A DNA stretch of 64,000 nt, taken from NCBI RefSeq assembly GCF_000210915.2, contig NC_016620.1, positions 930,001 through 994,000 of the forward strand. Reading direction: 5' to 3'. Position numbers and translations under genes: made by a program. Positions within the stretch are counted from its first letter, which is position 1; each line of letters starts with the position of its first letter. The stretch is from Halobacteriovorax marinus SJ (lineage in GTDB: Bacteria; Bdellovibrionota; Bacteriovoracia; Bacteriovoracales; Bacteriovoracaceae). The notes under the pieces are model-generated. The model was not told the origin of the DNA, did not search any database, and saw only the letters and a program-made list of their open reading frames with translations. Positions 11,220-14,135 of this stretch are shown here, piece by piece.

Positions 11220-11732
11220 CTATTTTTCTTTGAACTCGGCTTCAAATACACCGGGTTCAACTTCACGATTAGTTCGTTTGCTAAACTGTTCTTGTTCAAA
11301 TGGGTTGCTCTTAGATTGGTAGCTAAAACCTCCACCAAAGCTAGATGCACCAAATTTGATATTCCCACTCTTTATAGCTTTTTCGAAATAGCCTTTTAGA
11401 AAGGCCGTGAGTAGGTGTCTCGTTCCTGGAAAGACCATGCAGATTCCCATGATGTCTGTGAGAAAGCCAGGAGTAAGAAGAAGTAGACCGCCTCCAAAGA
11501 CGAGAAGTCCATGCATGAGTTGGTTTGTTGGCAGAGAGCCTCTATTGAGATCATTTTGAATCGAAGCTAGAATGGCCAATCCTTGTGATTTAGCTAAGCT
11601 GGCCCCGACGATACCTGTTAAAATAACTACCGCTAACGTATTGAGTCCGCCAATCTGGGCACCAATCGAAAATAAGAGATAGATCTCTATGGCCGGAATA
11701 ACGGTAAATAATAAAACTAATATTGGAAACAT
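11220..11732 (-). CDS. fxsA: FxsA family membrane protein
   Basis: A 170-residue protein matching FxsA, a cytoplasmic-membrane protein that in E. coli alleviates exclusion of phage T7 by the F plasmid when overproduced. Visible are an N-terminal hydrophobic hairpin (1-45, with PAIEIYLLF and GIVGASLAKSQG) and a second one (about 73-95, LLLTPGFLTDIMG), then a hydrophilic Phe/Gln-rich tail. The conserved LLTPGFLTD motif is diagnostic. The normal function is unknown. It is divergent from the SUI1-like gene, with 95 bp between starts. Confidence 0.88.
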   Translation of the reverse strand: MFPILVLLFTVIPAIEIYLLFSIGAQIGGLNTLAVVILTGIVGASLAKSQGLAILASIQNDLNRGSLPTNQLMHGLLVFGGGLLLLTPGFLTDIMGICMVFPGTRHLLTAFLKGYFEKAIKSGNIKFGASSFGGGFSYQSKSNPFEQEQFSKRTNREVEPGVFEAEFKEK

Positions 11733-11827
11733 TCTTTCTCCTTAGGTATTTTATAGCAAAGTTTGATGAAGAACCCCATCATTCTATTGTAAAATTACTG
11801 TCAAATGACCTATTTTTGAGGATCTAT

Positions 11828-12166
11828 ATGAATAATGATGACTATGAATTAGTATACGTCAGCGATGGTTCTGGAAAGAATCAACTGGATAAGAATAAGA
11901 AGAAGAAAGAGAAATTACCTGAAATTATCCCATCGCAGACGACTTTAAAGATGAGGATTGAGAAAAAGGGAAGGGGCGGTAAGGCCGTTACTGTTTTCTA
12001 TGAATTTCCACATAATCCCCCATTCTTTAAAAGACTAATGAAAGAGTTAAAGAATTACTGTGCTACAGGTGGAAGCTTTAAAGATGATACATTTGAGATT
12101 CAGGGAGATCAGAGAGAAAAGCTGAAGCCCTATCTTGAAGAAAAGGGCTTCACTGTAAAGGGGTAG
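11828..12166 (+). CDS. SUI1/YciH-type translation initiation factor homologue
   Basis: A 112-residue protein whose C-terminal 75 residues form the SUI1/eIF1 domain (TLKMRIEKKGRGGKAVTVF at about 37-55, then CATGGSFKDDTFEIQGD). Bacterial YciH-type proteins affect the fidelity of translation initiation under stress. The ATG at 11828 is chosen because GAGGA (11818-11822) precedes it and the SUI1 alignment begins soon after; a longer reading frame extends to 11723 but would overlap the divergent fxsA start. The N terminus is a Lys/Asp-rich linker typical of bacterial members. The stop lies only 4 bp from the convergent helicase gene. Confidence 0.88.
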   Translation: MNNDDYELVYVSDGSGKNQLDKNKKKKEKLPEIIPSQTTLKMRIEKKGRGGKAVTVFYEFPHNPPFFKRLMKELKNYCATGGSFKDDTFEIQGDQREKLKPYLEEKGFTVKG

Positions 12167-12170
12167 GAGC

Positions 12171-14135
12171 TTAGTTTAAGCTAAGCTCTACCTGCTTAAA
12201 GCGTCCCTCTCCTATAGAGTTGGACTTAAATTTAGGGTCTTCACTAATATATTGATGAACAATTCTTCTTTGTGCCGGATTCATTGACTTGAGAAGGATC
12301 GCCTTTTTAGATTCTAAGACTTTTTTCTTCATCTCATCTACTAATGAGAGAATTTCTTTTTCATTACTCTTATTCTTAGGTCTGTCGTTTTGATTGTCTT
12401 CGTTAAAACATCTAAGCGTAAGTTTTACTTCATTTTTCATATGAACTTTTCTTAGTAGAAATTGCTTAATTAAAGTTTCAAATGAAATAAGTAACTCGGC
12501 TTTATTTCTTAGCAATAGTCCTAGATCATTTCCTGTGTAAGTCACCTTGAGATGATCGTCTTTAAAAGAAACTTTTACGAATAAATCAAGTTGTGCCTTT
12601 CTTAGAATACCTATTAGAAATGGAGTAAGTACTTTTTTAAAGATAGGCTTAAGTGAGTGCTTATATGTATTCTTTCTTGGACCAAAGAAGAAGAAGAGTT
12701 TTCTTCCTTCTTTAACTAACTCTGTATTGATTAAGTGAGAGTCTTTTACTGCAAAGTACTTAAGCGCTGCTGCAATAGACTCTTTCTCAGAGCTTGCTGT
12801 AGAAATAAAGAATCTTCTATCGTTTTTAAATACTTTTCCAATAAATGGAATAGTACTTGTTCTTGGCTTAACTTCTTTACTTGCTGGCTTCTTCGTATCT
12901 TTTGATTTAGAAGTTTTCTTGCTATCTCTGCTTGGTCTCTCAACGACTTGTAGAGACTTCGCATCCAGATATGGTTTAGGACATACATCAGTTGCAAAGT
13001 CCTCATCACCTAGGTCCATTTTTGGAATACTACCTCCAATAAATTCAGAGATAGGGTCTAGGTTTTCGCAGTCTTCAAAAGAGCAGAAGCTGATGGCCTG
13101 ACCATCTTTTCCGGCCCTACCTGTACGTCCAATTCTATGAACATAACTTGCAGCTTCATTTGGAAGGTCAAAGTTGATGACTAAGTTTACATCCTTAATG
13201 TCGAGTCCTCTCGCCGCTACATCAGTACAAACAAGAATAGTCGTTTCCTTAGATCTAAACTCTTCCATTAAGCGAGTTCTCTTATTCTGCGGCATGCGCC
13301 CTGAAATTGGCTTGGCCTTAAAGTTCATTTTCTTAAGCCACTCTGCAACGAGGTGTGTTTGAAATTGAGTGTTACAGAAAATAATAGCGTAAGCGTCTTC
13401 GTGAGTTTGAAGCTGCTTTACTAAGAGTGGCATTTTTTCGTTCTTATCGATCATTGCAATTTTATGATCAATATTATCTACAAGGATAGATTCCTCATTT
13501 AATTTTATCTCAAGTGGTTGAGAGCCAAACTTAAATGCAGTGTTGAGAACATCCATATTTGTCGTGGCAGAAACCATGATAAGTTGTCTTGTCTTTGGTA
13601 TGCCATTTAAAATAAATTCGATATCTTTTTTAAATCCCATATCAAAGAGTCTATCCGCTTCGTCAAAAACAACAGCGAGACAATTTGCAAGATCGATTTC
13701 TTTTTGCTTTGTGAGATCGTTTAGCCTTCCTGGAGTAGCCACAAGAACATGAACGCCTTCTTTTAGTTCTTCGATTTGTTTCTCAATCTTCTCTCCACCA
13801 ATAATGCATGAAGATTTGATTCCTAGTTCTGCACCAACTTGCTCAAAGAACTTATTAGTTTGTTGGGCCAGCTCTCTCGTTGGACTTAAAATAACGATTT
13901 GTTGGCTTGGATTATCAAGGGCCTTTTCCTCTAGAAGGATCTCCATAATTGGAATGGCAAATGAACCTGTCTTTCCACTCCCTGTCTCTGCGAGTGCAAA
14001 AATATCTTTCTTTTCTAGTATTGGCTTGATTGTTAGGTCTTGAATTTCACTGGCTTCTTTAAAACCGTGTGAGTTAAGAGCTTTGATTAGTTCTGGTTGA
14101 AGATTATATTCAACAAATTCTTTGGTTGTTTTCAT
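12171..14135 (-). CDS. DEAD-box RNA helicase fused to a Jag/KhpB-like RNA-binding module
   Basis: A 654-residue protein. Residues 1-370 form a complete DEAD-box helicase: Q motif region, Walker A AETGSGKT, PTRELA, ATPGR, DEAD, SAT, and HRIGRTGRAG. A Lys/Ser-rich linker (about 385-430) follows. Residues 440-654 are not a usual helicase tail; they read as the three parts of Jag (SpoIIIJ-associated, KhpB): a Jag_N-like segment (about 441-489), a KH-like segment (518-577, NDLGLLLRNKAELL) and an R3H domain (598-654) with the diagnostic R623-R-I-V-H627 preceded by KSMNPAQ and followed by an SIGEG motif. The KH GxxG loop is degenerate. Jag/KhpB is a global RNA-binding protein, so the fusion would tether a helicase to its RNA targets. 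Monocistronic. Confidence 0.85.
   Translation of the reverse strand: MKTTKEFVEYNLQPELIKALNSHGFKEASEIQDLTIKPILEKKDIFALAETGSGKTGSFAIPIMEILLEEKALDNPSQQIVILSPTRELAQQTNKFFEQVGAELGIKSSCIIGGEKIEKQIEELKEGVHVLVATPGRLNDLTKQKEIDLANCLAVVFDEADRLFDMGFKKDIEFILNGIPKTRQLIMVSATTNMDVLNTAFKFGSQPLEIKLNEESILVDNIDHKIAMIDKNEKMPLLVKQLQTHEDAYAIIFCNTQFQTHLVAEWLKKMNFKAKPISGRMPQNKRTRLMEEFRSKETTILVCTDVAARGLDIKDVNLVINFDLPNEAASYVHRIGRTGRAGKDGQAISFCSFEDCENLDPISEFIGGSIPKMDLGDEDFATDVCPKPYLDAKSLQVVERPSRDSKKTSKSKDTKKPASKEVKPRTSTIPFIGKVFKNDRRFFISTASSEKESIAAALKYFAVKDSHLINTELVKEGRKLFFFFGPRKNTYKHSLKPIFKKVLTPFLIGILRKAQLDLFVKVSFKDDHLKVTYTGNDLGLLLRNKAELLISFETLIKQFLLRKVHMKNEVKLTLRCFNEDNQNDRPKNKSNEKEILSLVDEMKKKVLESKKAILLKSMNPAQRRIVHQYISEDPKFKSNSIGEGRFKQVELSLN

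Follow-up and report, generated by a model that had tools for sequence, protein, structure and literature searches.

The widespread RNA-binding protein KhpB/Jag, whose mode of action at the molecular level is unsettled, is elsewhere the product of a separate gene. The cores of DEAD-box helicases bind RNA without sequence preference and are kept on chosen RNAs by a C-terminal domain, as in DbpA; in DbpA/YxiN and other DEAD-box proteins, a C-terminal RNA-binding domain tethers the enzyme and the core unwinds. A helicase and an R3H domain share one chain in the eukaryotic proteins IGHMBP2/SMUBP-2 and YTHDC2, which belong to the UPF1-like or DEAH enzymes and lack both Jag_N and the Jag KH domain. 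Analysis of a 64,000-nucleotide stretch of the genome of Halobacteriovorax marinus SJ (the window) confirmed a different arrangement, in which an intact DEAD-box core is followed by a basic, partly disordered linker and then by a full-length Jag/KhpB module (Table 1). This architecture is solid. By analogy with the C-terminal domain of DbpA, we propose, with a probability of about 0.6, that the Jag tail serves as a tether holding an RhlE-like helicase on Jag-type RNAs.

Table 1. Parts of the fused helicase-Jag gene, in window coordinates.
Feature	Position	Strand	Details
Fused gene, DEAD-box RNA helicase and Jag/KhpB module	12171-14135	minus	654 aa; ORF, Pfam, NCBIfam
DEAD-box helicase core, residues 1-375	13011-14135	minus	DEAD 30-195, Helicase_C 234-342; Pfam, motifs
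Junction, residues 376-438	12822-13010	minus	pI 9.7; disorder predicted at 401-428
Jag_N domain, residues 442-497	12645-12812	minus	Covered by NCBIfam Jag_EloR and 3gku alignments
Type II KH domain without GxxG, residues 498-577	12405-12644	minus	Fold search
LLLRNKAE at GxxG loop position, residues 540-547	12495-12518	minus	Helical in AlphaFold2 model
R3H domain, residues 586-654	12174-12380	minus	Pfam R3H above cut-off
RRIVH, residues 623-627 (R3H)	12255-12269	minus	Motif position check
SIGEG, residues 640-644 (R3H)	12204-12218	minus	Motif position check

The N-terminal part has the two RecA-like domains and the full motif set of an SF2 DEAD-box helicase (AETGSGKT at residue 49, PTREL at 85, TPGR at 134, DEAD at 158, SAT at 189, ARGLD at 308 and HRIGRTGR at 333), and Pfam finds DEAD, Helicase_C and R3H in the 654-residue protein, so that the normal DEAD-box core described in the sequence-only reading is borne out. 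The core lies below all the NCBIfam helicase equivalog cut-offs shown, the best being CshA at 355 bits against 646. It appears to be an RhlE/CshA-like helicase, for which RNA-dependent ATPase and unwinding activities are predicted. A SUI1/eIF1-like gene (11723-12166, plus strand; Pfam 51 bits) lies convergent to the fused gene, its stop codon 4 nt from that of the helicase, an arrangement conserved within the genus only. A conserved operon was considered as a hint to function and rejected, the neighbourhood of SUI1, FxsA and histidine kinase genes being retained only inside the genus.

The tail had been read from sequence as Jag_N, KH and R3H domains in the order found in Jag, with a clear R3H part, and comparison of its profile and structure with the Jag domains had been suggested as a check. 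Both comparisons gave significant matches to Jag, with KhpB/EloR structures ranked first. Residues 447-649 align to positions 6-199 of the 203 in the NCBIfam Jag_EloR profile (NF041568; E-value 2e-16 for the whole protein and 4e-17 for residues 440-654 alone). The score of 60-63 bits is under the equivalog cut-off of 145, which is likewise exceeded by the stand-alone Jags of the phylum in 0 of 291 genomes. In a phmmer search of the PDB, the tail alone matched, along all of its own length, Clostridium symbiosum Jag (3gku; E 2.4e-10) and Thermus Jag/KhpB (9lrg) at E 9e-4, and a profile of 24 fused tails matched 3gku over positions 19-228 of 228 (E 4.8e-29) and Thermus KhpB 9lrg (E 1.5e-15). The AlphaFold2 model of the tail (pLDDT 86) retrieved 3gku and the Thermus KhpB/EloR structures 9lrg and 9lri as top Foldseek matches, and VIA-align gave Z 10.5-10.9 against the three. 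The whole-chain rmsd to the KhpB/EloR structures is large (11-14 Å), as a different arrangement of the domains would predict; the KH part of the model superposes on S3 KH domains at 2-3 Å, and the R3H part on PARN and YlmH at about 2-3 Å. The Jag_N, KH and R3H order emerges alike from the profile, the 3gku alignment and the fold search, in which model residues 72-154 match S3 KH domains and KhpB. Pfam R3H matches residues 594-650 (45 bits; cut-off 26.8), the RRIVH and SIGEG motifs lie where they had been placed, and the R, H, S, G, G and K of R3H do not vary among the 24 tails. Pfam Jag_N matches 11 of these 24, the window's copy not among them, and Pfam KH_KhpA-B matches none.

The absence of GxxG from the KH loop had been recorded correctly and in the right place; the fusion does not explain it. 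GxxG is missing in all fused tails, and the model has a helix through the loop. Stand-alone Jags from sister families have lost the first glycine and usually retain the second (for example TEKDG); the window's family has additionally lost the second. The absence is thus no mark of fusion, because the stand-alone Jags of the phylum already lack the first glycine, and fusion was rejected as the sole cause. The loss may mean weaker RNA binding, and it counts against tethering. Together with the helical loop, it would also suit a tail that is mainly a protein-docking platform for KhpA, the ribosome or an RNase and has lost most RNA binding; we consider this improbable in view of an invariant R3H signature and a strongly basic tail. 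Most stand-alone Jags of the sister families (L012-L037) have no recognisable Jag_N, which the window's family keeps; the same is probably true of Bdellovibrio-type stand-alone Jags.

Whether a separate jag gene exists elsewhere in the genome had been left open, and the answer is that there is none. A whole-genome search of this essentially complete genome found no R3H gene besides the fused one, and a search with Jag_EloR matched only the fused gene and KhpA, a 79-residue protein with an intact GKQG loop, whose gene adjoins rpsP. Within the run rpmH-rnpA-yidC-mnmE-mnmG-rsmG-parA-parB, yidC abuts mnmE with no jag between them. The yidC locus was also read in 14 other family genomes: yidC was followed directly by mnmE in 13 and by another gene in one. 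All 21 stand-alone jag loci examined in sister families have yidC and mnmE beside jag, and none of the fused or free Jag modules examined in the window's family does. A Pfam search of the genome for Hfq gave no match, and a Jag-type protein could therefore handle a larger share of RNA traffic in this organism.

The survey of relatives that had been proposed found the fusion in 51 of 129 family genomes (family profile; frames of at least 640 aa, counted from the table). The contig scan used a tighter set of tails, the profile of all 24 being too diverse. A module of the same clade occurs outside a full fusion frame in another five of the 129: in G117, G315 and G316 it is free, with no helicase attached; in G286 it is split by a frameshift (L203:5597-6612), which is either a sequencing error or decay; and in G219 it is truncated by the contig end. 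An R3H search of the same genomes put the same 56 above the cut-off, and by both searches the remaining 73 have neither fusion nor jag, and no R3H. The function must therefore be dispensable. Frames in the window's family are about 650-780 aa long in the phylum survey, and the stand-alone Jags of other families mostly about 180-260 aa. Named relatives belong to Halobacteriovorax and Bacteriovoracaceae. Beyond the phylum, occurrence was judged from 80 named loci alone; every fusion among them lies in Bdellovibrionota-type records, and the matches beyond are stand-alone. In a search of 27 genomes with the core, close orthologues (53-69% identity) were confined to genomes with the tail, and the other family genomes had only paralogues at no more than 40% identity.

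The main rival to tethering is an independent KhpB function in the same chain: the tail would keep a separate KhpB/EloR job, acting with KhpA on small RNAs, UTRs or cell elongation, and the fusion would merely tie its dosage to that of the helicase. In other bacteria KhpB has sRNAs, tRNAs and UTRs as ligands and uses its KH domain to pair with KhpA (PMC10117718, PMC6403258), KhpA is present here and highly conserved, and the free modules in at least three genomes imply that both halves can also work apart. Against this, gain and loss of core and tail coincide in the genomes checked, KhpA and the module do not co-vary, and the KH domain has diverged too far for the Pfam KhpA/B model to match; on balance we regard such a role as unlikely, if still worth serious attention. 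KhpA is found in 117 of the 129 genomes, equally with and without the fusion, and co-variation was accordingly rejected as support for a complex of KhpA with the fusion protein. Family genomes without R3H (for example G032, G055 and G240) mostly retain KhpA at high identity, so KhpA must have KhpB-independent work there.

The origin of the fusion was traced in two trees. That of the cores held 31 fused cores, four sister-family helicases and 21 paralogues; all the fused ones form a single clade (SH-aLRT 95), to which the RG-tailed helicases from sister families are sister (joint clade support 99). The fusion therefore arose once, and separate fusion events are rejected. In the Jag-module tree, the family's modules form one clade (98/91), sister to the phylum's main stand-alone Jag clade (98/87), and the free modules are nested among the fused ones; a topology with the fused tails as one clade excluding the free modules was rejected by the AU test (p 0.002, lnL difference 39), a result to be taken with caution given the long branches. 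Some of the free modules look like later fissions. The simplest history would be that jag left its yidC-mnmE locus and joined a helicase once, replacing an ancestral RG-rich tail, after which the core may have been shed in a few lineages and helicase-Jag lost from about half of the family. Nearest to the fused cores are the sister-family helicases L207-L210, which carry an RG-rich tail and a conserved amphipathic C-terminus (like GQKIAGFFKKLF); an alpha/beta hydrolase gene lies beside all four, and a gene resembling pcnB (of the poly(A) polymerase/CCA-adding type) near three.

Comparisons within the genus put dN/dS at about 0.02-0.05 in the core and at about 0.09-0.10 in the tail where dS is estimable, values that are rough given saturated dS. 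Both halves are under purifying selection. Together with the strong profile matches and the same architecture in 51 genomes, this refutes the idea that the join is an artefact of assembly or frameshift, or the resemblance to Jag due to chance; nothing was found in favour of that idea, whose probability is negligible.

For tethering speak the full-length Jag homology in sequence and fold; the intact helicase motifs and R3H signature, invariant in relatives; the basic tail (pI 9.9) set against a core of acidic pI (5.3); core orthologues found only where the tail exists; the single clade of fused cores; and the lack both of jag at yidC-mnmE and of a detectable Hfq. Dispensability in 73 of 129 genomes, the free modules and the retention of KhpA regardless of fusion speak against it. 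That Jag survives in the window's family, whose members are marine predators, almost only as a helicase tail suggests that helicase and Jag normally act on the same RNAs. In the proposed mechanism, the Jag module would anchor the enzyme to a group of structured RNAs, contacting them mainly through R3H; the KH domain, because its GxxG is gone, would be chiefly a structural or dimerisation surface; and the sequence-non-specific core would unwind nearby duplexes in cycles of ATP hydrolysis. RNA binding by the fusion protein, its targets, the tethering and any contact with KhpA are what we infer. It is tempting to go further and suggest that KhpB and RhlE/CshA-type helicases are functional partners across bacteria, here united in one Hfq-independent RNA-remodelling chaperone with KhpA as a subunit; we hold this to be doubtful.

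From a family-wide fusion of single origin, accompanied by loss of the separate jag, it can be predicted that KhpB works at RNA duplexes that need opening, and CshA- or RhlE-type helicases emerge as a candidate class of partner for KhpB. The fused tail is also a naturally occurring KhpB that lacks GxxG, and in the free modules there may be natural fissions through which tethering could be separated from catalysis.

No description of a helicase-Jag fusion was found in a literature search whose scope excluded subscription journals and preprints, in keeping with the earlier statement that none was known. Jag/KhpB/EloR itself (NF041568; 3gku, 9lrg, 9lri) shares with the tail its domain order, fold and intact R3H signature, and the tree places the fused module beside the phylum's own Jags; the fused form differs in standing behind a DEAD-box helicase, away from yidC-mnmE, in having a KH domain without GxxG and in scoring under the equivalog cut-off. 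The R3H domain of SMUBP-2 (1msz) matches the 24-tail profile only weakly. DbpA/YxiN and CsdA likewise join a DEAD core to a structured C-terminal RNA-binding tail, although their tails are of other kinds than Jag, and the fused core falls below the curated NCBIfam score for DbpA, as it does for RhlE and CshA. The RhlE-like helicases of sister families (L175-L178) have the nearest cores outside the family and form the sister clade, but their tails are RG-rich and disordered with an amphipathic end segment, and carry no Jag. Helicase-Jag is accordingly judged to be a new architecture of known domains.
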